From IMG/VR virus record IMGVR_UViG_3300020445_000052, positions 1-27,733 of that record: 27,733 nt of DNA, one strand, 5' to 3'. This stretch comes from a virus. Shown here in pieces: positions 2,708-27,621 of the stretch (position 1 is the first letter of the stretch; the number at the start of each line of letters is the position of its first letter). The position numbers and the translations under genes were made by a program. Below the pieces are notes generated by a model. It made no database searches. It was not told the DNA's origin and saw only the letters and a list, made by a program, of their open reading frames with translations.

Positions 2708-3400
2708 CTATGAGTGGCACGTCATCGAGGTATAGTAAAATTCTGACTCGTTAGTCGCATCCTTACTGGTTCTAAGACCTCTCCTATGCATATTAAATCC
2801 TATGATAGTCCTACGCTCATCAGAATCGTTTATTCCTCCTCTATGCTTCCACCATGCTGGAAATATTACGAGATCACCCTCCTTAAAATCAGGTGTGTAC
2901 CATTTATCCACATCCCACTCATCCCTAAACTGTGTGGGTATAGCACCATCAGGCATCTCAACATATAATACACAACTGACTCCCTTACCACCATGATCAT
3001 GTAAACCATGATACTGTGTCCTCATACAGGTCTCAAACCATAGGTCAGTCACATGATACTCAGCATCTATGGTACTTTCCTTCTTCCATTGATTAATATA
3101 CTTCTTAAGATCATCCAATAATGGTTTAGCATATAATGGTAATGGATTGATCTTACTATTACTAGTCTTCTTATTGCTGAAGAAATCAGTATCAAAATCA
3201 GTACCACAGTAAGATTTTCTTATCCTATCATCATTCTGTGGTATAGTATGTTGCATCAATTTCATTTTCCGATACACTTCAGTATCAATGTTCTCTTTAC
3301 CTCTATATGGTTCGATCATCTCAAGTATCTTAGTCTTGAATTCACCCCAGTTCTCAATACTATACTTAAATATAGGTTGCTGGACATCATATACTTTCAT
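2708..3400 (-). CDS. Putative 2OG-Fe(II) oxygenase with HxH metal motif
   Basis: The 230-residue protein has the layout of the phage 2OG-Fe(II) oxygenase group (resembling Pfam PF13759). HDH lies at residues 134-136, just before a strand with CVLYVEMPDG. A beta segment FKEGDLVIFPAWWKHRGG supplies the distal histidine (H186), and DERRTII supplies arginine (R196/R197) for the 2-oxoglutarate carboxylate. The expected HxD is HxH here, as in the next gene upstream. Such enzymes couple decarboxylation of 2-oxoglutarate to oxidation of a protein or small-molecule substrate, which is unknown in this case. It directly abuts and is coupled to the upstream oxygenase (one-base overlap at 3400), with which it shares fold and size but limited sequence. 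Confidence 0.75.
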   Translation of the reverse strand: MKVYDVQQPIFKYSIENWGEFKTKILEMIEPYRGKENIDTEVYRKMKLMQHTIPQNDDRIRKSYCGTDFDTDFFSNKKTSNSKINPLPLYAKPLLDDLKKYINQWKKESTIDAEYHVTDLWFETCMRTQYHGLHDHGGKGVSCVLYVEMPDGAIPTQFRDEWDVDKWYTPDFKEGDLVIFPAWWKHRGGINDSDERRTIIGFNMHRRGLRTSKDATNESEFYYTSMTCHS

Positions 3401-4092
3401 TAAAATGTCCTCCAGTGGTCGAAATGTATCATACCTGTATCTAGGTCAGTAAATCGTGGGTCTAATAATAGTTTTATATCACCTGCTATTGATCTTATAT
3501 TAGTTCCTTTACCACCAGTACCAGCAACACCATGCTTTAGGTTACTTGGGAACACCAATAAATCACCTCTATTAACCATCACGCTAGAGATACCACTATT
3601 AATATAATTTAACTCACCAACAAAACTTCTTGTTGGATCTGGTTTGGTATCAAATATACCACCAGAATAACAGTTAGGGTTATTCTCACTGTAGAATGTA
3701 ATAGTTGACTGATCAGGTGGATTAACGTAGTATATAAATGATAAGTCAGAACATGCATGAGTATGTGGTGTCATACTATCATTAAAATCTTTAATAGTAA
3801 ACCAAGACTTCATAATATATGGTATAATCATATCAGTCTTGATGTTTGCTACATGTAAACACTCACGTACCTCATTTAAAATTAAAGAAAAGAAAGGTTT
3901 TAACTCATCAGTATGATGTAACAGACCTTTACCTCTAGTCTCACCAGTCAACGGATACCTACCATCATGAGCTTCATTAGGATCAAATTGATATTCTTTC
4001 AAATTGTACAACAAATCACTCCAATAGGATTTCTCTGGGAGTGTGCGTTGGTAAATAACTGTAGGAAAAATAGAGTGTATTAACGTTGTCAT
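3400..4092 (-). CDS. Putative 2OG-Fe(II) oxygenase with HxH metal motif
   Basis: The 230-residue product starts MTTLIHSIFPTVIYQ, a start typical of this phage oxygenase group. HTH at residues 110-112 precedes LSFIYYVNPP, the core strand. RGDLLVFPSNLKHGV gives the distal histidine H187, and R200 in NIRSIAG is the likely 2-oxoglutarate-binding arginine. The insertion between them (residues 131-170) is longer than in the downstream paralogue. The start codon shares the palindrome CATG with the divergent plus-strand gene, so promoter and ribosome-binding site must lie inside that gene. I found no convincing ones. The substrate is unknown. The fold call is good, and the catalytic type is less certain because the usual acidic ligand is replaced by histidine. 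Confidence 0.8.
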   Translation of the reverse strand: MTTLIHSIFPTVIYQRTLPEKSYWSDLLYNLKEYQFDPNEAHDGRYPLTGETRGKGLLHHTDELKPFFSLILNEVRECLHVANIKTDMIIPYIMKSWFTIKDFNDSMTPHTHACSDLSFIYYVNPPDQSTITFYSENNPNCYSGGIFDTKPDPTRSFVGELNYINSGISSVMVNRGDLLVFPSNLKHGVAGTGGKGTNIRSIAGDIKLLLDPRFTDLDTGMIHFDHWRTF

Positions 4093-4900
4093 GATTGAAT
4101 CATATAATTCTTACCTAGATTTGGACAGTGCTAAGGCATTACGTTACGAGTGTGATAACATATTAACACATGATCCATTAGAACAAAAGACATGGTGGTA
4201 TGGTTTTGATAGACCCCCACAAAATATACTGGAAAACTTTATATTTCAGTCAGCAAGACAACACAATGTATTCCATTCTTATATTGGTGCTGAGTGGTGG
4301 ATTAGATCACATGATAGTTTAGATAGTAGTTGGATATTCCATGTTGATGGTGATCTTGGTCAGTCAAGAAGAGGTGATCAATATTTATCAGCACCATTCT
4401 GTACTATAACATATTTAACAGATTATGGTCAACCAACTGTAGTACTGGACCATATGCATGACTGGAATAAAAAAGGATTTTATATAATGGGTGATAATGA
4501 GTGGTCATTCTGGGCATCACCTAAGATGGGTAAACATATTAACTGGTCATTACCATATTTTCATGGTGTACCACATAACTTTGGTTATTTACCTGAAGGG
4601 GAAAAAAGAGTGACTCTTATGTTTAACACATGGAAGACAAGACCTTGGGAACCTGAATGTATAGAGTACAACTTAGACTACAAAATCTCAGGTGGTGAGG
4701 TTAAACTCATACCTGAGAAGGATACAACTATTAAATGGTTAGAACCACATGGATTTTTCACTACTAAACTTGAGGATGCTCTTGATTTAGCAATTCAGTA
4801 TCATGGATACAATCAGAGAGGAGAATCATGGTTAGTATCTCAATTTGCACCAGAGAATACTGATCTTACCCCACGTTTTCCCACGCAAGAGTCCCATTAG
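4091..4900 (+). CDS. Putative 2OG-Fe(II) oxygenase-like protein
   Basis: This is the only convincing plus-strand gene. The product has 269 residues. WIFHVDGDLG holds an HxD pair (H84, D86). Further on come PYFHGVPHNFGYLP (H158/H162) and KRVTLMFNTW (R173), which complete the HxD...H...R pattern of 2-oxoglutarate/Fe(II) oxygenases. The approximately 80 residues after R173 are not typical of the fold and may form a separate C-terminal part. No other methionine occurs before about residue 122, so the start at 4091 is the only good one. It overlaps the divergent gene's start. The 3' end overlaps the convergent 114-aa gene by 35 bases, with no terminator seen. The substrate is unknown. Confidence 0.7.
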   Translation: MIESYNSYLDLDSAKALRYECDNILTHDPLEQKTWWYGFDRPPQNILENFIFQSARQHNVFHSYIGAEWWIRSHDSLDSSWIFHVDGDLGQSRRGDQYLSAPFCTITYLTDYGQPTVVLDHMHDWNKKGFYIMGDNEWSFWASPKMGKHINWSLPYFHGVPHNFGYLPEGEKRVTLMFNTWKTRPWEPECIEYNLDYKISGGEVKLIPEKDTTIKWLEPHGFFTTKLEDALDLAIQYHGYNQRGESWLVSQFAPENTDLTPRFPTQESH

Positions 4901-5210
4901 CATTAAATACACACGCATAAATGTAATGGTCAGCATCAGGGCATAGACTAGACTTAGGGAACCAGTCTTCACCTACTGACTGTGCATTAATTGCATCATT
5001 ATAATGATACGAACCAAGTGTAGATAGTTTTAAGTTTGCTAATACTTCATCAGGTAAGAATGCTTCATACCATGTCCATATAGTATTAATCTTATCTGTA
5101 TCAGCTTTTGCTTCAAGATCTCTTAGCTTACTACCATTATACCAAAGAAAAGGTGTTCCCTTTGCTTTAGCATAATCACTTAGTGTCTCCTGTAGTGCTT
5201 TGTAGTCCAT
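4866..5210 (-). CDS. Hypothetical protein, 114 aa, end of the late operon
   Basis: This is the last gene of the long late operon. It starts 35 bases inside the end of the PKHD-type hydroxylase gene and ends overlapping the convergent plus-strand oxygenase by 35 bases. The N-terminal 40 residues look helical (MDYKALQETLSDYAKAKG). The middle is aromatic (TIWTWYEAFLPDEVL), and the C-terminus forms predicted strands (YIYACVFNANGTLAWENVG). No family is recognised. Its position suggests a role in tail-fibre assembly or modification, but this is inference from context alone. Confidence 0.7.
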   Translation of the reverse strand: MDYKALQETLSDYAKAKGTPFLWYNGSKLRDLEAKADTDKINTIWTWYEAFLPDEVLANLKLSTLGSYHYNDAINAQSVGEDWFPKSSLCPDADHYIYACVFNANGTLAWENVG

Positions 5211-5928
5211 AAGATTGTTGTTGGTTTTCGTTGTGGAAGGTGGAAGCGTACTCCCTCATCAATTTATATTTAATAGCATTAAAGTATGTATCTGGTTTAA
5301 TATCTGGTTCCCATTTACTTTCATCCAATGCTTGTATTGCATAGTGTGTTAGATCCTGATAATCATAGAGTAATTCACGAACAAATGCATTCTGAATAAG
5401 GGTTTCAACCCACATTACACATACTCTACGTTCACCCTTAGTCACTGGTCTAACAGAATGCCAGTGATTTGGATCAAAGAATAGTGCTTCACCTTTCTTC
5501 AATCTATATGAATATGATTCTGATCCTACACGTATCCATAGATCACCACCTTCGTACTCACTCTCATCATTGATAGCAGTAATCATTAGATAATCAGTTC
5601 TCAATGACCAACCACCTGGTTTACCCATTAATGGTGCATCATTATGGAAATCATAATAACCACCACCATCTTCCTCATCAGAAGAATACTTAACAAACAT
5701 AGGTCCAGTAGTTCTTCTTGTTAGTATTGCTCTAGCAAATAAAGAATTCCAAAACTGATCCATGAAGAGTTGAGAACATTTACCATCAGGATCCTGCATC
5801 TCTACATTACGTTTGATCTTACGATCAGCAGTACCAGATGCTTTACCATCCTCAAACTCATTAAATTCATAAAAATTCTGAATGTGGTCACAAACAACCT
5901 CATCCAACCACTTCATTCTACGTATCAT
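5176..5928 (-). CDS. PKHD-type 2OG-Fe(II) hydroxylase
   Basis: The 250-residue protein matches the PKHD-type hydroxylase family (YbiX/PiuC-like). YYDFHNDAP contains the iron ligands H95 and D97. EYEGGDLWI is the family's EGGxL block. FDPNHWHSVRPVTKGERR gives the distal H157 and R167 for 2-oxoglutarate. It is followed directly by VMWVETLIQNAFVRELLYD, the W..SL(V/I)...RE.L(F/Y)D signature that sets this family apart from other oxygenases. The reaction is hydroxylation of an unknown, possibly protein, substrate. It lies two bases after the chaperone-like gene and overlaps the 114-aa gene by 35 bases, inside the tail operon. That context hints at tail proteins as substrate. Confidence 0.88.
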   Translation of the reverse strand: MIRRMKWLDEVVCDHIQNFYEFNEFEDGKASGTADRKIKRNVEMQDPDGKCSQLFMDQFWNSLFARAILTRRTTGPMFVKYSSDEEDGGGYYDFHNDAPLMGKPGGWSLRTDYLMITAINDESEYEGGDLWIRVGSESYSYRLKKGEALFFDPNHWHSVRPVTKGERRVCVMWVETLIQNAFVRELLYDYQDLTHYAIQALDESKWEPDIKPDTYFNAIKYKLMREYASTFHNENQQQSYGLQSTTGDTK

Positions 5929-5930
5929 AA

Positions 5931-6788
5931 TTAACTAGATTGTGCTCTAAATTCGTCTAATAGTTTTTGTTCTTGTTCTATACGTGCAACCAATGCTTCA
6001 ACAGGATCAGTTATATGTGATATATTAGGACCATTGAATAATGGTGCTGGTCTATGGAATTGAATAGCAAGCATAACAAATCTTTCCATTGCTTCTTCCA
6101 TCCCTGATCCTGAGGAGTGAGGTGGGAAACTTACATATTGTTCATCAGTTGATAAGTATGCTACTCCCTCATTATAAGGCAAAAAGTGCTCTTTGTAAAC
6201 CTTTGGATCAATTGGTATTTTGACTGTAGTAACTACATTAACACCAGGATCTGTGAATACATCAGGCAATGCTCTGATCTTAACTCTCCAGTCTTTCCAC
6301 TGTTGTTTCTCTTCAGCAGTAACTGGTGCATCTTCAAGCATTGTCCAATCAGATGTATGAAGAAAGAAATTCCTCCATGCTTTAACTCTGGTTAGAGTTA
6401 TACCTTTCTCTTCTGAAATTATTCTCTTGAACTTATCATCAACTGTTGACCTATCAACTGAATCAACAGCATCAAATGCATCTCTAGCAGATTGTACAAA
6501 TGTTCTTACAGTATCTATTGTAGGTTCTGTGAACAAATAATCTTTCCAATAATATTCTCCAGTAGTATGATTACGAACATATGTACTCTTATCACACTTC
6601 CATGACTCTGTTGCACCATTACTATACTCAAAGTATTGTAATTTATCACGATCAGCACTCCATAAAGGATATAATACTGGTGTGATATAGGTACTCCAGT
6701 GATCGTCTGATATAGTCTTTGTCTTAGAACCACGAGTAATTTGTCTCGATGGTCCACGTATGATTAAAGTATTATTATTTAATTCCAT
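5931..6788 (-). CDS. Virion-associated protein with tail-assembly-chaperone-like domain
   Basis: The 285-residue protein has an N-terminal half (1-125) of unknown type. Next comes a block around residues 136-172 reading RNFFLHTSDWTMLEDAP and then EEKQQWKDWRVKIRALP. This agrees with the phage tail assembly chaperone-like domain (Pfam PF16778), in which RN.LL..SDWT..PDAP is followed by W..YR..LR.LP. The domain is often found in or next to tail-fibre and collar genes. The C-terminus (from about 245) ends in an acidic/Gln-rich helix (RIEQEQKLLDEF). It lies one base after the prolyl-hydroxylase-like gene and two bases before the PKHD-type gene. It may help fibre folding or attachment. The domain match is from memory of the consensus. 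Confidence 0.7.
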   Translation of the reverse strand: MELNNNTLIIRGPSRQITRGSKTKTISDDHWSTYITPVLYPLWSADRDKLQYFEYSNGATESWKCDKSTYVRNHTTGEYYWKDYLFTEPTIDTVRTFVQSARDAFDAVDSVDRSTVDDKFKRIISEEKGITLTRVKAWRNFFLHTSDWTMLEDAPVTAEEKQQWKDWRVKIRALPDVFTDPGVNVVTTVKIPIDPKVYKEHFLPYNEGVAYLSTDEQYVSFPPHSSGSGMEEAMERFVMLAIQFHRPAPLFNGPNISHITDPVEALVARIEQEQKLLDEFRAQSS

Positions 6789-6789
6789 G

Positions 6790-7491
6790 TTATGCGGGCT
6801 GTTGATAGAACCATCCTGTTACTATGTATTTAGTTCCTTTAAGAACTAGATTACCCTTATGAGAGTGTGTATAACCTGCTGGCCAAATCACTACTGTACC
6901 TGTACTTGGTTTAATCCTTCTCTTTTGATAGAAGAACTCAGTCTCACCACCTTCAAAGTCTTCATTAAGATATATCATCCACACTGCACATCTAGCATGT
7001 TCACCATATGAACCATCTTCATGATGCCAAACATGATAACCACCACCTTCAGGTGTCTTCTGACATTTAATTGCAAATGATGTTAGAGGGATTTGAGTTA
7101 AAGATGAATACTCTGCACAATAATGATTGATACATGTCTGTAGGTACTGATTAACACGAGCAGACAATTGACTATCCATGTTATCTAACATAATAGAATA
7201 GTCTCTTCTACCCAATCCTTTATTACCAAACTGTGCTACTCCAGCCATGGAGTTCTCATCACCATCACAAATATTAATCTTCTGCAAATCACCAGACATA
7301 TTTCTTTCTACTGCCTGTTCTTCCCATCTATTATGAAATCCAATAATATCATCACAGAATGCCTTTGGTACAAAGTTTGGCCAGATTGCAATGAAATCAT
7401 CAAATTCTGCCTTGTTACCCATTAGATGAACAGGTACAATAGGATTCACCATCTCAACATAGTTGGATGCACCACTACTAGTTATCGCCAT
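6790..7491 (-). CDS. Prolyl-4-hydroxylase-like 2OG-Fe(II) oxygenase
   Basis: The 233-residue protein has the P4Hc pattern: GYHVWHHEDG with ligands H157 and D159, then the strand VWMIYLNEDFEGGETEF (YLN..FEGGET.F is typical), then WPAGYTHSHKG with distal H211. K221 follows in GTKYIVTGW, at the place where prolyl 4-hydroxylases use lysine to hold 2-oxoglutarate. The likely reaction is hydroxylation, classically of proline. It lies 7 bases after the glycine-rich collar protein and one base before the chaperone-like gene, so it is produced together with the fibre proteins. Its short N-terminal region (1-35) is not part of the fold. Confidence 0.88.
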   Translation of the reverse strand: MAITSSGASNYVEMVNPIVPVHLMGNKAEFDDFIAIWPNFVPKAFCDDIIGFHNRWEEQAVERNMSGDLQKINICDGDENSMAGVAQFGNKGLGRRDYSIMLDNMDSQLSARVNQYLQTCINHYCAEYSSLTQIPLTSFAIKCQKTPEGGGYHVWHHEDGSYGEHARCAVWMIYLNEDFEGGETEFFYQKRRIKPSTGTVVIWPAGYTHSHKGNLVLKGTKYIVTGWFYQQPA

Positions 7492-7498
7492 AATTTAA

Positions 7499-9976
7499 TC
7501 AGTAAGCCTTAATAAGATATTTAACCCTAAAGTATTTTAGCACAAGAGGGACTGCTGTGCGAGGGACAATGCTTGCGGAAACCTCTAATTGTTCAGCACC
7601 AGTCATAGTCATAGTACCTTCATTCAAAGTAATACCTGCCTGTGCTGGTGTAATTGATAGAGTTTTCTCTGTAACAAAGGAGACTGTCTCTCCTCTATCA
7701 TTTGTTTCATTCTCATTTATTTTATTTGCACCGTATGGATTGGTATAAGCATCAGATGTACCAGCATCACCAAAATCTTGTGGTGTCTGGTCAGCAGCAG
7801 ATGATGGGAATGACCTACCAGAACCCCAGATTACTCTGACTCCTCCATGTCCTCCATTACCACCTGTTACATTACTTATACCATCATAAAAACATGCTCC
7901 TCCACCTCCACCTAAATCACCACCGTTACCACCGTAGACTGAACCGTAGTTAAAGTTACCTCCAGTACAATCAACTGTGCTAAACTTAGCAACTGGGTTT
8001 TGGTTATCTGATATATCATATACTTTCCATGCAATACCAGCTGGATTATCAACCCAAGCATTATTTGCTACGCTAGTATTCTCAATAGTCCATGATATAA
8101 CATGTCTTCCTTCTGCTAATGTACCAAGTGAATGAACAGTTGATGGTGTACTTGTAGAAGTAGCAGAAAAGTTGGTACTTAATAATTGAGTACCACTTGG
8201 GTCAGTCCATGTTAATGTTCCTGTATTATCAGCAGCAACCTCTATCTGAGCAGGATACCCCAAACCAGATCCAATGTCAAGTATTTGTCCACCAGTCTGT
8301 GCATTACCAAGATAAGGATCAACATCAGCAGAAGGATTTCCTGGTACTGTAGGATATATTGCATGTTGTTGCATGAATGTAGTCCAGTTAGTATATACAC
8401 CACCTCCAGTACCACCAGAATTATTTACAGTAACTCTAACCCAGTTCTCTGTTTTTATTGGTGCAGATTTAAAGTTAGCATTTGAATTAGTACCAGCACC
8501 TTGTGATGTATGATTATCAGTTGATCCAGCAGTACCACCATTCATTGCTGCATTAGGAGTTGCTTGTGTTCCACCACCTGTTCCATCAGCTCCCTTACCT
8601 TGAAGACCTACACCACCTCCACCAGCACCATGACCAACCAAACCAGAATCACAACCAGCACCACCACCTCCAGATAGAGTTGGTGCATCTCCTCCATTAG
8701 GAGTGGATCCACCATTTCCAGCATATCCAGCGGCTCCACCACCACCGCCATAAGATGTGGAAGGACCACCATTACCACCACCGTCTCCAGAGTATATACC
8801 TCCCTGACTGGAGTCATTAGAGTTTGAATCATTACCTGATCCAGCACCATAACCACATACTGTAGCACGATTAATAAAATAACTATCTCCACCTGGATGA
8901 TGTCCTGAGGCATTATCTGCACCTCCAGTACCACCAGTACCAACGACTATAGGGTACGAGGATCCTGGTGTTACTGAAATTGAGTTTTTATACCCTAGGC
9001 CACCGCCACCACCTCCTTTTGTACCACCAGCACCGCCGCCACCACCACCAACACATACTACATCTACTTCAGTCACACCAGTAGGACATATCCAACTATG
9101 AGATCCAGGTGTAACAAACTCTGACTGACCTATTGCTTCTTGCTGATTACCACCACTCTGTTCATGTGCATATGTTGGTGATAAATCATATGAATACATT
9201 GCACCTTCAGCTTCAGTCCTACCTCTTGTTGGTCTAAACTCGCATATGTAATGAGTATGCTCTGCTGAATATCCCATTTCTTCAGGAGCCCATGCTACAA
9301 TCTGACCTGCACCAGTATCATAGTTTGTAGTATTATCTCCTGTTGCTGCTGTTCCAGCATCCATAGACTGTCTCTCGTCTCTCTCACTACACAGAACCAA
9401 ATGAGTATGTGGTGGTGGACCATTTAATGCTTTTGGTTCTAAAGGACCAATCTTAACAGTAGCAGTACCAGTCAATTGACCACTAACAAATCCAACTACA
9501 TTACTATACCCTGAAATTCTTACACTACCAAAACTATACTCATTTAACTGTCTTGCTCTGGATATATACCACTCACCTCCCACATCTCCTACTTCCATAG
9601 AAGAATCATCAGGAGTCAAACTACCAGGTCCATTTACTCCACCAGGTCCATTAATCCTTTTCATCCTAAGGTCTGGTAACTTAAATGTACCAGTTAATGT
9701 ACCACCATAGTTTCTCAGATCAACTGTGTTAGGATCTGTTCCACCATACTTATTACCTATTGCCTCATATAATAGAGGGAAGTCTGATATATTTAAGTTT
9801 GCACCATCACAATATAAGTATCCAGGATGATTATATGAACAGTTAGATGATACAGTAGAACCTGCATTCTTACTGTAATGATCAACATAAACAGCTATAA
9901 TAGATCCTATAGGAGCACCAGAGTCGTAAATCTGATCCGAATAGTGATTGTGGTATGAGTGTTGAAGTCTAGGCAT
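7499..9976 (-). CDS. Tail-collar protein with gp38-like glycine-rich adhesin region
   Basis: The 825-residue virion protein starts with a collar domain (about residues 18-105): GAPIGSIIAVYV, GYLYCDGANL, LLYEAIGNKYGG and FKLPDLR. HTH pairs near residues 192 and 239 resemble the His-X-His metal sites in T4 gp12/gp37 tips. From about residue 290 (WICPTGVTEVDVVCVGG) to 500 the chain is dominated by runs of glycine, like the polyglycine loops of the gp38-type adhesins that read host receptors. An insertion of about 170 residues without such runs (about 510-675) looks like a beta-sandwich. The glycine-rich part then resumes and closes with GGVRVIWGSGRSFPSS near residues 712-727. The first and last parts probably trimerise, while the glycine-rich region is exposed. 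The start overlaps the upstream stop (TGATG). Confidence 0.85.
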   Translation of the reverse strand: MPRLQHSYHNHYSDQIYDSGAPIGSIIAVYVDHYSKNAGSTVSSNCSYNHPGYLYCDGANLNISDFPLLYEAIGNKYGGTDPNTVDLRNYGGTLTGTFKLPDLRMKRINGPGGVNGPGSLTPDDSSMEVGDVGGEWYISRARQLNEYSFGSVRISGYSNVVGFVSGQLTGTATVKIGPLEPKALNGPPPHTHLVLCSERDERQSMDAGTAATGDNTTNYDTGAGQIVAWAPEEMGYSAEHTHYICEFRPTRGRTEAEGAMYSYDLSPTYAHEQSGGNQQEAIGQSEFVTPGSHSWICPTGVTEVDVVCVGGGGGGAGGTKGGGGGGLGYKNSISVTPGSSYPIVVGTGGTGGADNASGHHPGGDSYFINRATVCGYGAGSGNDSNSNDSSQGGIYSGDGGGNGGPSTSYGGGGGAAGYAGNGGSTPNGGDAPTLSGGGGAGCDSGLVGHGAGGGGVGLQGKGADGTGGGTQATPNAAMNGGTAGSTDNHTSQGAGTNSNANFKSAPIKTENWVRVTVNNSGGTGGGVYTNWTTFMQQHAIYPTVPGNPSADVDPYLGNAQTGGQILDIGSGLGYPAQIEVAADNTGTLTWTDPSGTQLLSTNFSATSTSTPSTVHSLGTLAEGRHVISWTIENTSVANNAWVDNPAGIAWKVYDISDNQNPVAKFSTVDCTGGNFNYGSVYGGNGGDLGGGGGACFYDGISNVTGGNGGHGGVRVIWGSGRSFPSSAADQTPQDFGDAGTSDAYTNPYGANKINENETNDRGETVSFVTEKTLSITPAQAGITLNEGTMTMTGAEQLEVSASIVPRTAVPLVLKYFRVKYLIKAY

Positions 9977-11169
9977 CAGTACTTAATTAGGTATTCTAAT
10001 ACAACGTATGGTGATACAACATCATCAAATTTAGAGACAGTACTAGTTCTTATAGTAACATTTGCCTCTAATCCATCTGGTCTAACAGTAGTCACATCAG
10101 TCTGTGCTTGATAGGATGTTTCACCAACTTCTCTACTTAATCTATGACTATGAGCAGTAAAATCTGTAGTATCTGATCCTGGTGGTGCTTCAGACATAAC
10201 CTCCATGTTTCTAGCAGCAGGATATGCTAATGTAGTATCATCAACACGAGTATCATATGGTCTACCCCAACCAATATTAATTGGTACTTCAGCAGGCCAT
10301 GAAGCAGCAGTCTTAGACTGTACAGTTAAGTTAGTTGGCCATAATGATTGGTAATTGAGACCAGTATCTGTAGTGGTAGCACCTTGAGAACTGTTTCCAG
10401 ATCCTTGAGCCCACCCCATGAAATATCTCTTCCAATTACCACAGTTTACATTACAATTACCTTCACCACTTGGTGGTCCTTTGTACTCATAATATTCTCT
10501 TGCTCTTGCTTGACAGTCACTATTGCTAACATCAATAGGTGCATCAGCAACAGCCATATATGATGGTTGAGATCTATCTGGGTGAGCAGGGTCATCCTTA
10601 ACAGCAACTCTATATGTATTACTAAAATGACAATGTGATCCAATAGCACTTGCAGAGACACTTTCAGTCTCTGATGTAGTTGGTATAGTCCAACCTACGT
10701 TACCATTAAGAGCAAATGTTTGTTGTGGTACAGTAAATACTCCATTAAAACCAATGGTAGCAGTATTACCTACATTAGATGTAATCTCAACACCAACACC
10801 TGCTTTAATTACTGTATTTGTATTCTCTCCACTACCAACAGTCTTCTCTATATTTCTATACTGTCCTACGTTAGCAGATGTTGCTGCTTCAATATGCTTT
10901 GAACCTAAATCTGGTACTTGGAACTGTGTATCTAATAGAGTCTGTGCTGTCTTCTTGTATATACATGCAGAACCAGTACCTAGAATATCTGCTAATTGTG
11001 GATATAATGCAGCACTATAAACTGAACCATCACATCTTAAATATCCTGCTGGTAAATTAGCTACATTCTGTGATGCGTCAGGATCATTATCCATCACCCT
11101 AACTGACCAATTAATTATAGTACCAGGTGCATTTCCTAACTTGGATTTTTCTTTTTGATAAAACTTCAT
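9976..11169 (-). CDS. Phage tail-collar domain protein, 397 aa
   Basis: The N-terminal part (about residues 12-95) is a collar domain: PGTIINWSVRV, LPAGYLRCDGSVYS, LYPQLADILG and FQVPDLGSK. Middle strands follow, with His-X-His pairs at HCH (about residue 177) and HSH (about residue 339). In T4 short and long tail fibres such pairs bind zinc or iron along the trimer axis. The C-terminus ends VVLEYLIKY, a hydrophobic strand ending shared with the two neighbouring collar proteins. The start overlaps the upstream stop as TAATG at 11169 and the stop overlaps the next start at 9976. It is probably a trimeric tail-tip or fibre protein. No receptor can be deduced. Confidence 0.82.
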   Translation of the reverse strand: MKFYQKEKSKLGNAPGTIINWSVRVMDNDPDASQNVANLPAGYLRCDGSVYSAALYPQLADILGTGSACIYKKTAQTLLDTQFQVPDLGSKHIEAATSANVGQYRNIEKTVGSGENTNTVIKAGVGVEITSNVGNTATIGFNGVFTVPQQTFALNGNVGWTIPTTSETESVSASAIGSHCHFSNTYRVAVKDDPAHPDRSQPSYMAVADAPIDVSNSDCQARAREYYEYKGPPSGEGNCNVNCGNWKRYFMGWAQGSGNSSQGATTTDTGLNYQSLWPTNLTVQSKTAASWPAEVPINIGWGRPYDTRVDDTTLAYPAARNMEVMSEAPPGSDTTDFTAHSHRLSREVGETSYQAQTDVTTVRPDGLEANVTIRTSTVSKFDDVVSPYVVLEYLIKY

Positions 11170-12764: not shown

Positions 12765-12767
12765 GAC

Positions 12768-21700: not shown

Positions 21701-24700
21701 TTGTATGTTCAGTTGAACCAACAGATGCAACCTCAACAGAAGTATTGAAGAAAGGATCTGAAGGTCGTGGGTAACTATGGACTGAACCATAGTGATCCAT
21801 ATCACACTTAAAGTTAAGTGAGTTATTATCAATCTTTAAGTTAGTACCACTATTAAGTGTGTGATTACCAAGTGCTAGTTCTAGAACACCAGATGAAGCA
21901 GTGTAAGTAGCATCAGCAACATTATATCCAACAATAGGAGTTGCACCAACATTAACTTTAACTGTATCTGTTGTGAGATCAGTAATACTTAATAGACTAT
22001 TCTTATATGCTGGATCTCCTACACGTGGATAATCATGGTTAGTAGCATTAGCATCCATACCACAGGTAAATCTCAATGCACCTGTAGCAATAGAAATCTT
22101 ATTAGCAGCATTCAAACCATGATTACTCATAGTAAGAGTTAAATCACCAGTTGCAGGGTTATATGCTGCATTAGAAGGTGTAAAGGTTCCTAACTGTTGT
22201 TGCTGACTACCAGCAGTATCAATACCATACTCAACCAACTGGAAGAGAGATTCAACAGATGATACAACATCAGCACAATATACTCCACTAACAGGGTTTG
22301 GATCTGTAGTAATACTACCATCAGATACCTGAGTATAAGATGTATTAACACCAGCCCTTGGTGTGTATGTTACGTTCTGAACTACATCCTTAGCAATTGC
22401 CTTTGCAATTCTAAATGCATAGATAGACTCTTCCTCTTCTCCATCAAGGTGAGCACCTGTAACATATAGATTAGCAGCATCCCAAACCTTATTGTTTGCA
22501 CCAAACTTGACGTTATATGCAACTGCCTCAACAATATCTACAATATCATCAAAACAATTTACATCGCCACCAGGAACAATATGTGAAGGATATTCAATCT
22601 TCATATCCTTAACTGCTACATCAGCAATGTAGTTCTTGTTAGCAATTAATAGATCATATGCATCAGCAAAACGATCACCAACTGGGTTAATACCTTGGTT
22701 GATAATTGTCTTGATGTTATCGAAGTAAGTAACAACAGCAGCAGAAGTTGTAGCACACTCTGGATATACTGTATCAGTTGTGATAGTAGTATCTACAGTA
22801 CCTGTTTCAGAAGACCAGATACCCTTACGATCACCATTCTGATCCTCTAATTTGAATACTAACTTAGCACTAGCATTAGTACCCGTTGCATTTCTAGTAG
22901 TACCCGTTGATAGATAACTTCTCTGACCAGCAACTACAGCACCAAGTTCAACTGTTGTAGCATTAACAATATTCCTGATATATGTGTCTGTGGGAATGTT
23001 TGTTGTAGTAAGTGATGATGGATCAACAGTAGTATTATTAGCATTAACTGTTGTATACTCCTCCACCTTCATACCAATAGCAAGACCAACAGTAGAAGGA
23101 ACTGTAACTAGGGCAGAACCATTAGATACAGAACAACCTACTTGTAGGTAATCCCAATTACGGAATGAAGCAATAGCAAGATCACGAGCATACTCATAAC
23201 CTTCTAGTGTCTCAAACTTCTCACCATCAATATAATTTAATTCTCCAGCACTAAAGTATGCTTCAGCAGCCTGAATAGTATTGATGTTACCACCTAGACG
23301 TAAGTCAGATATAACAGCATCAAGAATCAATCCAATATCTCTCTGACACTTGGTGATGATAATATTCTTTTGTAGAAGAGCAGGGTACTTAGTAGTAATA
23401 TACCCATATGCTTCCTCTGCTATAAGATCTTTATTTGCCTCTATTAAGTTAGCAGCATCCTGATTCTTATTATCTACAACTACTGTAGTAGGGTTGAGAA
23501 TCTGTAATGATGTTGGGAATGTAGTAAAACCAGATGGTTCTAATGTCGCATTAAAGATAGCATTGGTTGGAGTTGTCTTACCTGTTCCAGTACCATAAGG
23601 ATCCAACTCAACAAAAATCTTCTCCTTACTCTTAGCACCAATTCTAAACCCATTAAGAGTAGCAGCAGGACGTTGCTTAGGATCTGTAACACCAGTACCA
23701 GCATAATACAACTTAGTAGGTGAAGCAGAATTCCTAGATGCTTGTACATCCCATGTATAGTAGTTTACTTGCTCTTCATTAGCAGCAGACTCATTTAATT
23801 TCTTAGGTGGAATAATTGCATCAATGTAACCACCCTTGTCTTGTGCGAATGAATATCCTTTAAATCCTTTTGCGTGTAGTGATGTATTACCGAAGTTACT
23901 GTTAGAGTTGGTGATACTCATATCACCACCACTTTCCATTAGGAAGTGATCAGCAAAACCAACAGCGAAGATACTAACACACTGAATGAATGAATCATTA
24001 ATTGCCTTGATGTGGCAGTTTCTCCAGTCATCCTTCCAGTATGCATCACCCTTGGTGTGATAAGGGACTGTTGCAAATGCATCGGAAAGAGATGCTTGGT
24101 TCCAAGTGTTTGTAAACTTGTCGTATCTAATGAATGCTCTATCATCTTTCTGTAGAGATACACCAGTATACTGAGCACAGACCATAGACTTGAAGCCTGA
24201 AGCCTTGCTACCATCTGCTAATAGACCACATATACCCCATGTAGACCTGATAGACAGGTTAAACATGTATGGTGAAGCAGATTCTACTGAGTCAACCTCT
24301 GCCTGTACATAAGCATTAGCAGAGAGACCATTTCCTGTACCATATGTCTGATTATTCTGTAGACCTAGAGATGCTACAGTACCAGGCAATTCAAAACTAA
24401 ATTTCCTACGGTTAGAAGAATCAATAGCAGATACACTAAATGTACCATTCAATGCATCATCTAAACCATTACTCTGTACAGCAAAGAACTGATCTTTAAT
24501 ATAACCATGAGCAACCTTTGTAGTCACATTAACAGTAACATTACCAACAGGAGATGAATCAACAACCTGAATGCTCTCAATAGATCTTAAGTCAGATAGA
24601 GGACCAACAATACGGTTCTCACTAACATTCTGACCAAACTCATTAACATCATCTATAGTAGGTTGATACTGAGCAAATGCATCTGCTATCTTAGAGTAAT

Positions 24701-25400
24701 AAAGTTCAAGTTCTGTCTTCTCAGCATATTGGAATACAGTAATCTTGTGGTGTGAATACTCAGGTATAGCAAGGTTAGCATTATCATTTTTACGATAATA
24801 GACCTTACCTACAGCATTATTGTTATCATATAAAGGAGACTTACTTGTAATATCTCCATCTTTAATAGTGAACTGCCAAATGTAAGCACCGCCTGTTACA
24901 TTGAAGATGGAAGTTCTAGCTTGTTCTTTATCAGCAGGATCAGGCACATATAAAGGACGTATATGTGTTCTACGAAGATCGTAACCAATTAAAGAGCAAC
25001 CACGAGGAACGACACAACCGCCATCTGTGCCGTTAAACTTATAAAGGACATTATCTGGATTGGACAAATCCAAGACACTAGAATCAGTCCATGTTGATGT
25101 AGACTGATCAAAACCAAAAACAGGAGTACCAGAGGTTGTTGCTAAACCAGGTCTGTTATCAATATAATGGTCACCAGGCATCAGCATGATGGTGAACTCA
25201 TCAAATCTATCGTTGTCTATACCTGGAAGGTAAGAATATCTCGAAACTTCAATAAAAGCTCTCTGAATCGTCTTGAATGGACGGGTCGGAGAATTACCTC
25301 TATTGTCTAGTTCGTCACTTGCGTTGAAGTCGTCTGGTGAGACGTACAAATATCTTCCAGATTTACTGGAAATTAAGTTATCTAATCTGGTTAGCGGCAT
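12768..25400 (-). CDS. Giant virion/tail-fibre structural protein, 4210 aa
   Basis: One uninterrupted frame of 12.6 kb encodes 4210 residues. The N-terminus has YVSPDDFNASDELDNRG and TRPFKTIQRAF, as in cyanophage structural proteins and the first coil of right-handed beta-helix proteins. Helical blocks with conserved AY/YARDLAIASF follow near residues 655-750 and 917-1005. Residues about 1073-2005 hold nine FTC...YPR modules and three short GGDY repeats, listed separately. Then come strand-rich parts with YYVIAPGRNTQPFN. From about 3190 to 3450 there are many beta turns of LxVxGDLxVDGGDI type. The C-terminal 150 residues end GELIVQTRNAGFGLVYAGT and RGWWLVEI, the ending of cyanophage fibre proteins. 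A late promoter is about 40 bases upstream. It most probably forms a long fibre or a baseplate appendage. Function beyond structure is unknown. Confidence 0.85.
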   Translation of the reverse strand: MPLTRLDNLISSKSGRYLYVSPDDFNASDELDNRGNSPTRPFKTIQRAFIEVSRYSYLPGIDNDRFDEFTIMLMPGDHYIDNRPGLATTSGTPVFGFDQSTSTWTDSSVLDLSNPDNVLYKFNGTDGGCVVPRGCSLIGYDLRRTHIRPLYVPDPADKEQARTSIFNVTGGAYIWQFTIKDGDITSKSPLYDNNNAVGKVYYRKNDNANLAIPEYSHHKITVFQYAEKTELELYYSKIADAFAQYQPTIDDVNEFGQNVSENRIVGPLSDLRSIESIQVVDSSPVGNVTVNVTTKVAHGYIKDQFFAVQSNGLDDALNGTFSVSAIDSSNRRKFSFELPGTVASLGLQNNQTYGTGNGLSANAYVQAEVDSVESASPYMFNLSIRSTWGICGLLADGSKASGFKSMVCAQYTGVSLQKDDRAFIRYDKFTNTWNQASLSDAFATVPYHTKGDAYWKDDWRNCHIKAINDSFIQCVSIFAVGFADHFLMESGGDMSITNSNSNFGNTSLHAKGFKGYSFAQDKGGYIDAIIPPKKLNESAANEEQVNYYTWDVQASRNSASPTKLYYAGTGVTDPKQRPAATLNGFRIGAKSKEKIFVELDPYGTGTGKTTPTNAIFNATLEPSGFTTFPTSLQILNPTTVVVDNKNQDAANLIEANKDLIAEEAYGYITTKYPALLQKNIIITKCQRDIGLILDAVISDLRLGGNINTIQAAEAYFSAGELNYIDGEKFETLEGYEYARDLAIASFRNWDYLQVGCSVSNGSALVTVPSTVGLAIGMKVEEYTTVNANNTTVDPSSLTTTNIPTDTYIRNIVNATTVELGAVVAGQRSYLSTGTTRNATGTNASAKLVFKLEDQNGDRKGIWSSETGTVDTTITTDTVYPECATTSAAVVTYFDNIKTIINQGINPVGDRFADAYDLLIANKNYIADVAVKDMKIEYPSHIVPGGDVNCFDDIVDIVEAVAYNVKFGANNKVWDAANLYVTGAHLDGEEEESIYAFRIAKAIAKDVVQNVTYTPRAGVNTSYTQVSDGSITTDPNPVSGVYCADVVSSVESLFQLVEYGIDTAGSQQQQLGTFTPSNAAYNPATGDLTLTMSNHGLNAANKISIATGALRFTCGMDANATNHDYPRVGDPAYKNSLLSITDLTTDTVKVNVGATPIVGYNVADATYTASSGVLELALGNHTLNSGTNLKIDNNSLNFKCDMDHYGSVHSYPRPSDPFFNTSVEVASVGSTEHTITGADYNPTTGELTLSLASHGFKARTTKTASNAVYDPTTGEMVITSNSHGFLVGDSVIIADNSLTFTCAKDSDATTHSYPRPTDPASGASLVITAKDQNTFTVNVGTSSNISAHTFDSAGTNGIIFVGDRVQLVDNSLTFTCAKDNNATQHNYPRPTDDASGEWLEIIAKPNDDQFTINIGQSPDTSAHTYVTAAANGLKKQTGTITVNIGQSPIVSHDVTAATYNALTGDMQLTIGTHSLAAESKKTPTGADYNPTTGVMTITSASHGFLEGDRVKIDAEAFTFTCAQDSNATQHKYPRASDPVSSKFIEISNVTNDTFDVQVLAQAPSTNTTAHTFVSATSNSITKKGESIQIAANSLSFTCTMDGNTATKTYPRTSDPYYNRAIPIKAADANTITVNVGQSPIVGFDVSAAVYNPTTGDMELTIGDHTLDIGDGIRLAEESLIFTCLEDNNGTQHKYPRASDPIANTSTPITAVGTSSHTVTTAVYDPVTGIMTLTIPGHNFANGNRIKIADNSLTFTCAKDNHNTTHTYPRATDYASGTWLEISNVQTDTFDVQVLPAQPSTNITAHTFTAASASGVTRQTGVVTINVLSSAPSTNTTTHTFVPATDLTPTNAAYNPTTGVMTVTAAGHGMKNDDHVKIADGALTFNCTEDSNATDHAYPRATDPASGAWLKISGVTTDTFDVQVLDVIPSTNTTAHTFVSGVANSIKRAVVNTGGDYVHTFVSATTGAVKSGGDYTHVFDSAKSFAIKTGGDYPHTFVTAGANSVTGYSTNAGQFAATTKTSPSQNVVTRANPSVSSDQFAQRGTLFTVDAGGTNPHKFETGTPVRLVARAKAGAVDLDERDVRLPQGFQPNRTYYVIAPGRNTQPFNYNDANVYNGIFDGRDQTKLMLANTKENAAAGIYIYSSETESLADDVEIIIEQYVLDSTYDLHEYRCTFNGTSGTILKTDVAHIFDKPSSAFNANEIQKVFFRTAGSDGNVGTLPTIAGGGGSQVSSTVEYYVRYESEDTFKIFATAQNAIVGSPEVQLDNNPTQFWYVFANKRTSPMRFDPTFVDTSASRQPAIPDGLWYLNLKDESTNDDNIVGRLLQTDYDSSSGQTQTTDSYYTRLKDERKANDRIYRLRYVQPSTYPGSIRKPNNGFVMKVRTDDKRNLLPQNITLEPVGGSPTKAEFRNPQTQNAAEVLGMTKVAFDAAVQAGTIQEKYIYDPDNNPCVVNTDNFLRFSIRSAREVTVGSQQLLQVTAFDHRVDDTNAPSLKNTVFHTVEVSSPQAGSFSTSKTSSTPSNIVQWTGGSSGFGYIHAYFAVGTKHYIILKDVSARPTYDVLTNTRFQQGAVYADQQADVNNGRDSKTNNLYVVGGANLFTLTPGDTMNDSIGNSYRVVAVEDIPEIEDTFYIFDSETIQDRVADQQDGIYYLTAVRGNVSPLPRGAGVGNNFQNFKFSQPISSLYPIDYKNDPTWYQVVDNDGTKDTLVTDPPASSSFADNYTHGLVWVNDAKRSMTKESVTDLTETGYFKDFNYTGTNALKAQNGNATSGSEQRKIAIAGDATSIHDQKVYIELRRPSIARSGNHTFEYLGFGPGNYSTGLPVRQEVILSEFQDYYAQAKREDGGIVFYTGLNSNGDLYIGNRKIDAITGEETFLEKAQLVSSTDDTDTITTLVTSFDTPVTFKDKITVEGVSYFNNRVIISTQPPTESPALTILSNPRTDGGAEDITLTRGSWADRNKGDIYISRNKISSAIYHIKGRGTTIFPGQEYSIRSNFSYTENLPSNRTPDQSSTFSANQVVKYYVSSDVDANPQAGDILYKGKSIEKSGSLGWIYANYYTNIPETSILDATTNGTSTVKINWSGVLTNASAGINMVVGKTIRIQGFSNPQINGKWVVTKADQSGADNGYIEFVVANTITTATYNWTPSSEPTATLERSDENWKETGVIGAEAIRTDTEAIGQYKVGINTVARTTHDAHEHAFLSYIASGTSYDQQVPRANLDVVGNAFISGKTIGSYLSDPTISKTETNLHEAFLVGGASDSPSSNATLRVSTQETRVGINTSRSELGDTLTVKGTLRLLGASANADIDGDLNVDGGDITTNATTFSLLNSNATTLNVGGDVENAFLFNTTANAQQIEIGTNVTQAAALRIHTSTTDSTINIGTVADTTTNRSVITIGGAFSNTANSTLTVRNAQTILDGDLEVNGGDLQSNASTINLFTRAGAGSIVNFATRASQFVIGGVAGTTEIRNSLKVNGDADLYGDITMHGGSNSGTVTVNRARLLTSAVAHSAGSLSNLNVDFYQYINDIDGAQIITSVNAADGTLSVPDNYFLDGNQVRFSDTSGLSNNVDTTTTYYVVDSNKAAGTFRVSTTEASANAIVISGTPGTSTGITLQNHTVDTGSGTTDWTGNSADAAYTQLPVNNVEGIEIGDILIIGTELVEVVSPGPDINTRLVTVNRGVDCTTVAAHADNEVIWKLAKSGGATYLTGRVPINSTTPAISSVNDITDTLEVPINELATGDAVQFSNAGSIVGVSLAPVTYFVVNAVNDTGNNVTRFQLSLDPEGTAIALSGNPTGSVLNFSSTLLSLAEFGGQFSINDYLRLSASPTCPSGEFVQITAVNDTNAEKFRVHNGANQDRFVIDSVYGGVSSTILSTQKYDINLTSDSDTNSTDNQFRILNGQPIPATRLTIDSDGKFTVVGNGTESLPKAIINKDGQTWLAGNLRVQNDGNAGSNDDAKSAFYVNSVTGDVEASGHLQIDDDFTIFSGTTGVQFPTNDEGRFHVDAQTGDTRIGLAPGTAGAALGDGDLTVNGGHVNIVSHDTATPSTTDYALNITNIGVSSNRKFQVRQDAAINAFGQDRFWGKNGGLKWEFLSSDATCVTGRNYMIAITATSVFTLPTEAETGDMIRFIEVTGALTYSASLVVRAPAGVGIQGDATGTSIANGNGAGGPYGGGELIVQTRNAGFGLVYAGTTDGAGNTIPSTYRGWWLVEI
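19390..22180 (-). repeat. Nine tandem FTC-YPR protein modules within the giant gene
   Basis: Within the giant gene, a degenerate module is repeated nine times. It has YNPTTG(D/E)(L/M)xLT, GH/SHGF, IAxxSLTFTC, (A/K)xDxNATxHxYPRxxDP and a final (I)xVxVGxSP or DVQVL. The YPR motifs lie near 22021, 21765, 21460, 21241, 20805, 20570, 20320, 20100 and 19710. The spacing is uneven (about 220 to 440 bases), so some copies lack a part or carry extra parts. Every copy keeps the cysteine of FTC (one reads FKC, one FNC). The DNA copies are diverged in sequence, so the repeat is visible mainly in the protein. Confidence 0.85.
19412..19557 (-). repeat. Three short GGDY repeats
   Basis: Directly downstream of the last FTC-YPR module there are three copies of about 19-20 residues: TGGDYVHTFVSA, SGGDYTHVFDSA and TGGDYPHTFVTA. 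The matching DNA on the plus strand repeats a tagtcaccacc core. They look like remnants or expansion of the HTF-ending part of the larger module. Confidence 0.85.
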
Positions 25401-25438
25401 GATTAAATATTGCTCTGCTGATTATGGTTGTCCTTGGG

Positions 25439-25573
25439 TTATTTATCAGAGTTAGTTCCTGCCTTTTCCGTTGCACGTAGTTTTTCTAATGCTTCTACAA
25501 CTTCAGGAGTTTCTTCCCATTCCCAAGTCTCTTCACGACCTTTCTTATCAATTTTGGTGAATGATTTTTTCAT
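25439..25573 (-). CDS. Small hypothetical protein, 44 aa
   Basis: The product begins MKKSFTKIDKKGREETWEWE and continues with EETPEVVEALEKL, ending with a Lys/Thr-rich tail. It is charged, with no cysteine and no membrane segment. A late promoter (25592-25599) lies 19 bases upstream of the ATG and a second one overlaps its stop codon, so it looks like the first gene of the late transcript that goes on into the giant fibre gene. The ribosome-binding site is weak (AGGG about 12 bases upstream). No family is recognised. A chaperone or virion role is only a possibility. Confidence 0.65.
   Translation of the reverse strand: MKKSFTKIDKKGREETWEWEETPEVVEALEKLRATEKAGTNSDK
25440..25447 (-). promoter_or_regulatory. 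T4-type late promoter for the giant gene operon
   Basis: On the minus strand the bases read GATAAATA, matching the NATAAATA late consensus of T4-like cyanophages (T4 itself: TATAAATA). It lies 40 bases upstream of the giant gene's ATG and overlaps the stop codon of the 44-aa gene. It is well placed to drive the operon 25400-4866. A late promoter of this kind is read by host polymerase with the phage sigma gp55 and the sliding clamp. Confidence 0.6.
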
Positions 25574-25591
25574 AGTATATGTACCCTATAG

Positions 25592-25599
25592 TATTTATT
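25592..25599 (-). promoter_or_regulatory. T4-type late promoter for the 44-aa gene
   Basis: AATAAATA on the minus strand matches the late consensus NATAAATA. It lies 19 bases upstream of the ATG at 25573 and its TAA is the stop codon of the upstream oxygenase gene. The 5' leader would be very short. Confidence 0.6.
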
Positions 25600-26149
25600 G
25601 TGGAATAAAGTAATTTAAGTTTATAACAGATTTGAATCTGGTATCAGTTTGACTTACACCTCTATGTTTTATGGAACTTGGAAATGTAACAATCCTGTTA
25701 GCAACAGCATTAACAGTAGATTCATCTTCAAATTCAGTATACCCATTACAGGTATTTAAGTAGAAAATTGATGTAGTCATTGTTTTACATGGTGTATCAG
25801 GTGCTACTCCCTCTGTTTTAATAGCATAGTCCCAATGAAACTCGCTTTTGAACTGTTCCTTCTTTAGTGGTTCTAAGTTTGCTTTGATCTTATAAACGGC
25901 AAGAAACTCTAATCTACTTAATATAGGTATAAGTCTATCAAAATACGGAGATTGTTTGTATATCAAACCACCATAATGAGATTCCATCCTAAAGAAAGGG
26001 TGTGTAAACTGATAATTATCTAACTTATCCCATTCTTTTCCATTTACTTTATGCTCATTATAATACCAAGGAAGATCACCAAAGAGCATAAACTCCCTTA
26101 AATCACTAAACTCTTTCTTTGAAAGAAAATCATCTGTAAGTTCAATCAT
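25595..26149 (-). CDS. Putative 2OG-Fe(II) oxygenase next to the halogenase
   Basis: The 184-residue protein has SEFHWDY with ligands H105 and D107, then MTTSIFYLNTCNGYTEFED (the strand after the first ligands, with a G.TEFED block). FPSSIKHRGVSQ follows with distal H162 and DTRFKSVINLNYF with R171 for 2-oxoglutarate. This is the complete HxD...H...R set of a compact phage oxygenase. Its start overlaps the halogenase stop as ATGA (26146-26149), so the two are translationally coupled and may act on the same substrate or in one pathway. The stop codon lies inside the late promoter of the next gene. The substrate is unknown. Confidence 0.85.
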   Translation of the reverse strand: MIELTDDFLSKKEFSDLREFMLFGDLPWYYNEHKVNGKEWDKLDNYQFTHPFFRMESHYGGLIYKQSPYFDRLIPILSRLEFLAVYKIKANLEPLKKEQFKSEFHWDYAIKTEGVAPDTPCKTMTTSIFYLNTCNGYTEFEDESTVNAVANRIVTFPSSIKHRGVSQTDTRFKSVINLNYFIPQ

Positions 26150-27621
26150 AATGAATTTAAGACCTTTTTCTGTGATACCCAGTTAATTGTACTCCTTTTT
26201 TGCTCTAAGAACTCATGCTGTCTCCTTGCTAAATCCCAGACACCACGAGGATCAGATTGAGAACGTAAAAATTCCTCTAAAGATTTCTTCTTAAACAACT
26301 TCAATCCCCTAGAAACCTGAATATAATTATCTAAACCCCATTGTGACCTCTTTCTACTTGATACAGGACCACTACCAAATGCAGTTCCATCAAGGAATTC
26401 TTCTCTACACTTCTCTATAACTTGTTGACACCACTCAGTCCTATGTTCCTTCATATACCTCCAGAACTCAGAATCCTCCCTGTCTGTAACATAGTGATAT
26501 GCAATAAACTCACATGTATCTGTCCATAGGTCGTAATTCGTAGCATTATAATTCTTCCTTGATAACTCTAAATTTTTAAATGTGGTGTTGTAAGAGTTAA
26601 AATCATATACCTGTTTAATAATACCATGAATGGATGTTGCTTCTAATGGTTCTGCAAATCCACTAGCAAGACCGATTGCTAAACAATTACCAATCCAATT
26701 CTCCTTATAATATCCTGGTTTATAATGGATAATTCTATCAGTATTCAAACCTACACCAAATTCATTCTGCAACCAAGCATCATACTTCTCTCTTGCTTCT
26801 TCATCAGAAGTGAATTTATCAGAATATATGAATCCAGTACCCCACCTATTTCCAATAGGAATCTTCCATATCCATCCAACATCAGTTGCTTCACATACCG
26901 TGTATGCTGGAACCTCTTTAAATTCATATGGAACCTGTTGTGGTATTGCTCTATTTAAAGGTAAATACCATGAAGTATCAACCCACTCTGGATTCAAATG
27001 CTTAAACAATACAGTATTAAACCCTGAAGCATCAACATAGAAATCCCCTTCAATTCTTCCTCTATCTCTTAATTCAACACCATTAATAATATTACCATCT
27101 GAATCTACATTTACTACAACATCATCAATAAATTCTACATCATCTTGCAATCGTTTAAAGAGAAAATCTGAGAAATTCTTGGTATCAATGTGTAATGCAT
27201 GATTATACTTCTTAAAATCTGGATCAGGTACATTAGTGGTATTCTTATTATATAAGACTCCACCATTATACTTACCTTGGAGCATAGAATATAAGGTACT
27301 AGACTGAGTATGTTCTGCTTCATCAAGACCGCCTATCTCGGCAAATCCATGAAAATAACTATGATTAGGAATCCAATTCTTAAAGTCAATACCCAACTTC
27401 ACACTACCACCACATTCTTTAAGAATCTCTGCACTACTAGTACCCGTTAAATTACAGAACAATCCCGTTAAAAATGGAGTTGTACTCTCTCCTACACCAA
27501 TATTCTTTGCTTTTGAGTCATACACAACTCTTACAGCAATTCTATCTTTCCAGCAACTCTTCATCAAAGATGCTGCTATTAATCCAGCACTACCAGCACC
27601 AATGATGACGACCTTTTTCAT
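26146..27621 (-). CDS. Flavin-dependent (tryptophan-type) halogenase
   Basis: The 491-residue protein belongs to the tryptophan halogenase family (Pfam PF04820). It has the FAD-binding GAGSAG at residues 8-13, GVGEST at 42-47, and SVKLGIDFKNW at about 73-83, with K75 at the place of the catalytic lysine of PrnA/RebH. GWIWKIP is the family's WxWxIP motif. SGFAEPLEATSIHG near residues 328-341 holds a glutamate of the EPLE(S/A)T motif. Such enzymes use FADH2, O2 and a halide to make hypohalous acid that the lysine carries to the substrate. A homologue from cyanophage Syn10, VirX1, has been reported to act on many substrates, including by iodination. No flavin reductase is seen here, so FADH2 would come from the host. 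The gene starts 36 bases after the tRNA-Tyr and overlaps the next oxygenase. Confidence 0.9.
   Translation of the reverse strand: MKKVVIIGAGSAGLIAASLMKSCWKDRIAVRVVYDSKAKNIGVGESTTPFLTGLFCNLTGTSSAEILKECGGSVKLGIDFKNWIPNHSYFHGFAEIGGLDEAEHTQSSTLYSMLQGKYNGGVLYNKNTTNVPDPDFKKYNHALHIDTKNFSDFLFKRLQDDVEFIDDVVVNVDSDGNIINGVELRDRGRIEGDFYVDASGFNTVLFKHLNPEWVDTSWYLPLNRAIPQQVPYEFKEVPAYTVCEATDVGWIWKIPIGNRWGTGFIYSDKFTSDEEAREKYDAWLQNEFGVGLNTDRIIHYKPGYYKENWIGNCLAIGLASGFAEPLEATSIHGIIKQVYDFNSYNTTFKNLELSRKNYNATNYDLWTDTCEFIAYHYVTDREDSEFWRYMKEHRTEWCQQVIEKCREEFLDGTAFGSGPVSSRKRSQWGLDNYIQVSRGLKLFKKKSLEEFLRSQSDPRGVWDLARRQHEFLEQKRSTINWVSQKKVLNSL

Follow-up and report, generated by a model that had tools for sequence, protein, structure and literature searches.

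Gene layout of the fibre operon and its oxygenases

The IMG/VR virus record IMGVR_UViG_3300020445_000052 is a linear sequence of 27,733 bases, and the whole of it is referred to here as the window. Its DNA matched the fibre genes of T4-like phages of Synechococcus and Prochlorococcus, and it represents 27.7 kb from the genome of a T4-like cyanophage that has not been cultivated. The subject of this study is a set of 2-oxoglutarate (2OG)-Fe(II) oxygenase genes and a halogenase gene found in and around its tail-fibre operon. On the minus strand the order of genes is a halogenase (26146-27621), an oxygenase of family phrog_274 (25595-26149) overlapping the halogenase by 4 bp, a 44-residue open reading frame (ORF) read from the sequence (25439-25573), a giant tail fibre of 4210 residues (12768-25400; phrog_529, phrog_4527), two collar-domain short-fibre proteins (11169-12764 and 9976-11169) and a collar-domain fibre with a glycine-rich domain (7499-9976; PF07484, PF21722). 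These are followed by a prolyl-4-hydroxylase-like oxygenase (6790-7491), a tail-fibre assembly chaperone (5931-6788; PF16778, phrog_4697), a second oxygenase of PiuC/PKHD type (5176-5928), a 114-residue protein (4866-5210; phrog_4883) and two further oxygenase-like proteins (3400-4092 and 2708-3400). A single gene of the set, encoding a 2OG-fold protein (4091-4900), is on the plus strand. From the fibres to the oxygenases the operon is contiguous, and the measured intergenic gaps of -1 to 7 bp agree with the limit of 7 bases given in the first-pass annotation of this DNA.

The first-pass annotation had listed six oxygenase-like genes and the halogenase. All were correctly placed. Each of the six oxygenase-like genes is a member of the 2OG-Fe(II) superfamily: Pfam identifies four, family and motif together identify 25595, and predicted fold is the sole basis for 4091. 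Pfam cut-offs were passed by 2708, 3400, 5176 and 6790. Both 2708 (E 5e-12; HDH...H...R) and 3400 (E 9e-9; HTH...H) matched PF13759 and are members of phrog_81, a family in whose alignment HxH is invariant, in contrast to the canonical HxD/E. Genes 5176 and 6790 matched PF13640 (2e-9 and 4e-13) and phrog_61. The nearest solved relative of 5176, which carries HND...H...R, was the bacterial PKHD-type hydroxylase PiuC (PDB 9ghl; E 2.8e-16 over 176 residues); unlike PiuC, 5176 lies inside a fibre operon. For 6790, with the motif H156xE158 (or H157xD159)...H209, it was a viral prolyl 4-hydroxylase entry, 5c5t, at a weak E of 1.3e-3. Gene 25595 matched phrog_274 (4e-39) and, weakly, PF13640 (0.0096), which other phrog_274 proteins match at up to 5e-9. 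The label "DNA endonuclease V" that PHROGs gives to phrog_274 is a misannotation, because members of phrog_274 match only 2OG families of Pfam above chance and 25595 has the motif HWD...H...R. The same label stands on phrog_274 proteins in RefSeq cyanophage records.

Assignment of 4091 was less direct. Searches with its profile against PDB and Pfam gave no match and no family. Profile comparison with a 2OG alignment gave a probability of just 1.6%, with the iron-ligand motifs in register (HVD; H84xD86...H158...R173). A first structure model, built from 10 sequences of 55-88% identity, was useless (predicted local distance difference test, pLDDT, 32). The protein was remodelled with P-HM2-type relatives from viral contigs, down to 25% identity, and the model then reached a pLDDT of 87 and a predicted template modelling score (pTM) of 0.88. 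Its best matches in PDB were 2OG dioxygenases, with the Pseudomonas putida prolyl 4-hydroxylase on top (E 1e-5, probability 1.0), at moderate TM-scores of 0.4-0.6. The P. putida enzyme has also been solved in complex with a protein, EF-Tu. The model supports a double-stranded beta-helix fold for 4091, the one oxygenase that was modelled. The second histidine of 4091 is not kept in the P-HM2-type relatives, and activity in the wider family is therefore not assured. The gene overlaps its neighbours, by 2 bp head-to-head with 3400-4092 and by 35 bp tail-to-tail with 4866-5210; its plus-strand orientation means that it sits within the block without being part of the same transcript.

Simple duplication as the origin of the set was rejected, since in an alignment of the oxygenases other than 4091 none exceeded 25% identity to the first sequence. 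They had been described earlier as different in sequence and not mere copies, which holds. Of the six, 5176, 25595 and 4091 show the HxD...H iron triad with an R for 2OG, 6790 has HxE or HxD, and 2708 and 3400 have HxH in its place.

Conservation of the block and its linkage to fibres and chaperones

A relative of 4091 (53-88% identity) was found at 36 environmental loci. As far as the contigs reach, the same seven-gene order was kept at all of them, namely 2OG(3400)-4091(+)-114-residue ORF-2OG(5176)-chaperone-2OG(6790)-glycine-rich fibre, with the antiparallel orientation of 4091 constant. The 3' end of the short-fibre/giant-fibre operon is thereby occupied by one constant unit of four different 2OG genes and a fibre chaperone; in the window a further 2OG gene and the halogenase stand at the 5' end of the operon. 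Gene order is also conserved in nine cultured genera, and S-PM2, Syn1 and S-CAM1 are among the phages that carry the block. Cyanophage S-RIM32 (NC_031235) has, like the window, the arrangement 2OG-giant fibre-collars-short fibre-2OG-chaperone-2OG-phrog_274. Unlike the window it lacks 4091 and the halogenase, has tRNAs ahead of the operon and carries other extra oxygenases.

Outside the block, genes varied between contigs, including the extra 2OG genes at its outer edge. Phages are known to swap fibre modules, and fibre regions could be recombination hot spots that gather cargo, the oxygenases being passengers with mixed and unrelated roles. The differing outer-edge genes fit this explanation, as does the gene ahead of 25595, which is the halogenase in the window and another 2OG gene in contig L062. 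Cargo should vary, however. In the core of the block neither order nor orientation changes, the genes overlap or lie almost end to end, and the antiparallel gene is included in this constancy. We consider the passenger explanation improbable. In L062, from a related phage, a gene for a second phrog_274 oxygenase (2470-3147), preceded by a CpeT-like gene, stands where the window has its halogenase; the position is possibly a swap site for modifying enzymes.

A panel of 24 records of cyanophages and related myoviruses was scanned for three 2OG families, collar domains, the giant fibre (phrog_529), chaperones and halogenases. Circular shifts preserving each genome's own clustering were used as the null model, and the limits of the fibre operons were partly approximated from matches. 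Within 3 kb of a giant-fibre operon, 48 of 200 2OG genes were found in the 23 cyanophage genomes, compared to 17.5 expected (P<=2.5e-4). The clustering of 2OG genes at fibres is not due to chance. The enrichment was carried by the nine genera with a collar operon (37 of 78 2OG genes; 10.8 expected). In all nine, the block-type chaperone is located between two 2OG genes. Five other chaperone-like loci are not orthologous to it, and four of these have a 2OG gene within 0.8 kb (0.59 expected, P 4e-4). This pairing is a more independent sign of linkage than the enrichment in the nine genera. Together with the kept gene order it gives good support to the earlier view of a system rather than of single genes. 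The fibre-linked oxygenase block is real, conserved and beyond chance in one cyanophage clade.

Linkage of halogenases to 2OG genes across the panel was marginal (five of nine within 2.5 kb, 2.0 expected, P 0.035) and for this reason is not leaned on. In S-RSM4 (L030, record 89-95 kb) a run of about eight 2OG genes ends beside a second giant tail fibre, and in Syn10 a run of 2OG genes and two halogenases adjoins fibre genes. The Syn10 cluster also contains, beside the halogenase VirX1, a JmjC_2-domain protein (L026 11760-12470, record 109.8-110.5 kb; PF08007 1e-16). JmjC_2 is the domain of ribosomal-protein hydroxylases.

Cyanophage 2OG oxygenases have been published as auxiliary metabolic genes altering 2-oxoglutarate and nitrogen control (Sullivan 2010, PMC3037559; PMC9602691), and 24 of them were counted in S-SCSM1 (PMC9602691). 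The window has phrog_61, phrog_81, PF13640 and PF13759 in common with the published sets. These studies count 2OG genes per genome and assign metabolic roles, and a linkage to fibres and chaperones is not described in them. In a study of pelagiphages, 2OG genes were co-located with ferrochelatases (PMC9599517). On the metabolic explanation, the enzymes would act on small molecules of host or phage, or adjust NtcA and nitrogen stress by drawing down 2-oxoglutarate, their place beside fibres being historical. The genome-wide dispersal of 2OG genes in P-SSM2 and S-SSM7 and the PiuC-type best match of 5176 are in its favour. A sink for 2-oxoglutarate alone would not require several mutually unrelated enzymes, though, and the fixed position between fibre and chaperone in nine genera and 36 loci, as well as the repeated pairing with unrelated chaperones, would be left unexplained. 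A metabolic role for the block is accordingly regarded as unlikely. A conserved block of fibre, chaperone, oxygenase and halogenase genes, or any link of cyanophage 2OG or halogenase genes to fibres, was not found reported in the open-licence literature.

The halogenase and the adhesin tips

Gene 26146 matched Trp_halogenase at 5e-82. It carries all the motifs of flavin halogenases, namely GAGSAG (GxGxxG), WIWKIP (WxWxIP), VKLGIDF with the catalytic lysine K79, and EPLEA with the glutamate E346, and is identified by family and motifs as a flavin-dependent halogenase of tryptophan type. In a phylogeny it joined, at 100/99 support, a clade apart from VirX1, here called the fibre-tip clade. In S-SRM01 and in eight of nine environmental loci of this clade the halogenase lies 8-40 bp from a tail-fibre gene on one flank and from a glycine-rich adhesin-tip gene on the other; one of the eight, L099, is a 3'-partial contig where the tip side alone is visible. 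L092 is the exception to this placement. Because several contigs are near-copies, the loci amount to about five independent lineages. In the window the halogenase precedes the giant fibre, and since the record ends at 27733, its other flank lies outside.

Most tips of the clade bear a variable loop rich in cysteine and tryptophan, for example CNWWGNCWWEASQW. Ranked by tryptophans within 45 residues, clade tips held places 1, 2 and 3 among 615 ORFs, and others came at 7 and 27. In genomes that lack a halogenase, glycine-rich adhesins or tip-like proteins reached at most 3 (MED4-213), 1 (P-TIM68) and 1 (SynMITS9220M01) by this measure, compared to 5 in S-SSM7 and 4 in P-SSM2, which have a halogenase; the sample is small and post hoc. 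Loops rich in aromatic residues may in any case be a common feature of adhesins.

VirX1 of cyanophage Syn10 (PDB 6qgm; PMC8407142) is likewise a phage flavin-dependent halogenase beside 2OG and tail-fibre assembly genes. It belongs to a different clade, whereas the clade of the window lies between fibre and adhesin tip. In the excerpted text of the review PMC8407142 no native substrate is listed for VirX1. Flavin halogenases can act on ribosomally made peptides or proteins, as SrpI does (PMC10858898), which offers a precedent for a protein substrate here; SrpI is part of a natural-product pathway with leader peptides and not of a virion.

Sugars are another conceivable target. The enzymes could remodel surface glycans, either of the host, for superinfection exclusion, or on virions, rather than amino acids. 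In S-SSM7 a tail fibre is directly followed by a group that holds the halogenase and 2OG genes together with carbamoyltransferases, heptose genes and a sugar epimerase, and one 2OG gene of P-SSM2 lies among glycosyltransferases. No sugar genes were found at the block in the window or in S-RIM32, and action on glycans is considered very unlikely. Three tandem paralogues of about 262 residues, rich in cysteine and glycine and with tryptophan clusters, lie between the tail fibre and the carbamoyltransferase-2OG-halogenase cluster of S-SSM7 (L149 770-3163, record about 98.3-100.7 kb). The reading frame of the S-PM2 halogenase (L050 6316-7791) appears to be broken by an internal TAA into two ORFs, which may reflect a pseudogene or a sequencing error.

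Proposed role in fibre and adhesin modification

The leading explanation is a late-expressed cassette that oxidises residues of fibres or adhesins during assembly, to which we give about an even chance. A tail or adhesin target is suggested by the position of the genes, by the chaperone as partner and by the halogenase clade between fibre and tryptophan-rich adhesin-tip genes. The explanation also draws on the 2OG run beside a giant fibre in S-RSM4, on the 2OG gene in place of the halogenase in L062, and on the P. putida prolyl 4-hydroxylase and SrpI as precedents. Oxygenases, chaperone and halogenase would be made late, together with the fibres. The chaperone would hold the trimeric fibre or adhesin soon after its synthesis, and as long as this is accessible the oxygenases would hydroxylate particular residues on it, using O2 and 2-oxoglutarate. 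The halogenase would halogenate aromatic residues, probably tryptophan in a receptor-binding loop of an adhesin, with reduced flavin from the host. These changes would make the fibre more stable or affect how it binds to the surface of the cyanobacterium. A more specific version, in which a halogenase encoded between fibre and tip halogenates tryptophan of the tip's tryptophan- and cysteine-rich loop and the chaperone-linked 2OG bank oxidises the fibres, is offered tentatively and is rated as unlikely.

The first-pass annotation had proposed modification of tail proteins, with hydroxyproline among the products, or host-surface chemistry. The system-level linkage in that proposal is well supported, and tail or adhesin protein as the target is an inference. 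No observation speaks in particular for hydroxyproline in collagen-like repeats. A search for collagen-like or proline-rich substrate repeats found none, with 10 G-x-P triplets in the 4210-residue fibre and 2-5 in the collar proteins, and so gave no support to a collagen-type prolyl 4-hydroxylase system. In a virome paper it was speculated that viral prolyl 4-hydroxylases relate to collagen in tail fibres (PMC9301287), and, as summarised there, 4-hydroxyproline in viral proteins was reported along with the prolyl 4-hydroxylase of PBCV-1 (Eriksson 1999). PBCV-1 resembles the window in having a virus-encoded 2OG hydroxylase, the type that 6790 weakly matches. It differs in being an algal virus with a single such gene, whereas in the window a number of unrelated oxygenases lie within a phage fibre operon whose fibres contain few G-x-P triplets.

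Several observations weigh against modification of fibres and adhesins. The activity of the phrog_81 proteins is uncertain because they carry HxH. The nine genera are not independent, as the block is common to them by descent, and in the other 14 genomes linkage to the giant fibre was weak (P 0.13-0.15 at 3-6 kb, and a marginal 0.012 at 10 kb). Families of the block's 2OG enzymes also occur far from fibres, with 23 copies in P-SSM2, and 2OG genes are also found in metabolic regions, such as the relative of 4091 near glycine dehydrogenase in P-HM2. Since a large share of 2OG genes in cyanophages is distant from fibres, roles as cargo or on small molecules are possible. Regarding the halogenase, there is no flavin reductase gene in the 27.7-kb window, the glycine-rich adhesin of the window has no tryptophan-rich loop (at most 3 tryptophans per 45 residues), the tip of L098 is low at 2 per 45, and the S-SSM7 halogenase sits among sugar genes.

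In cyanophages, 2OG oxygenase genes rank with the most frequent "auxiliary" genes and have been read as metabolic; that they are tied in a fixed way to genes for fibres, chaperones and adhesin tips leads to a testable answer on substrates. If adhesins are indeed chemically modified, host recognition by ocean phages would gain a new layer. On the more specific version, halogenation of receptor-binding proteins would be what one or more clades of phage halogenases do natively.

Two smaller features were noted in the window. A T4-late-promoter-like sequence, ATAAATACTAT (25588-25598, minus strand), is placed 14 nt ahead of the 44-residue ORF, just before the giant-fibre unit. It is the sole exact match in the window to the T4 late promoter consensus, and T4-late-promoter-like sites showed no overall enrichment across the window. 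A small SET-domain protein (485-781, minus strand; PF00856 8e-12), possibly a lysine methyltransferase, has counterparts of up to 97% identity that adjoin the block in other contigs.

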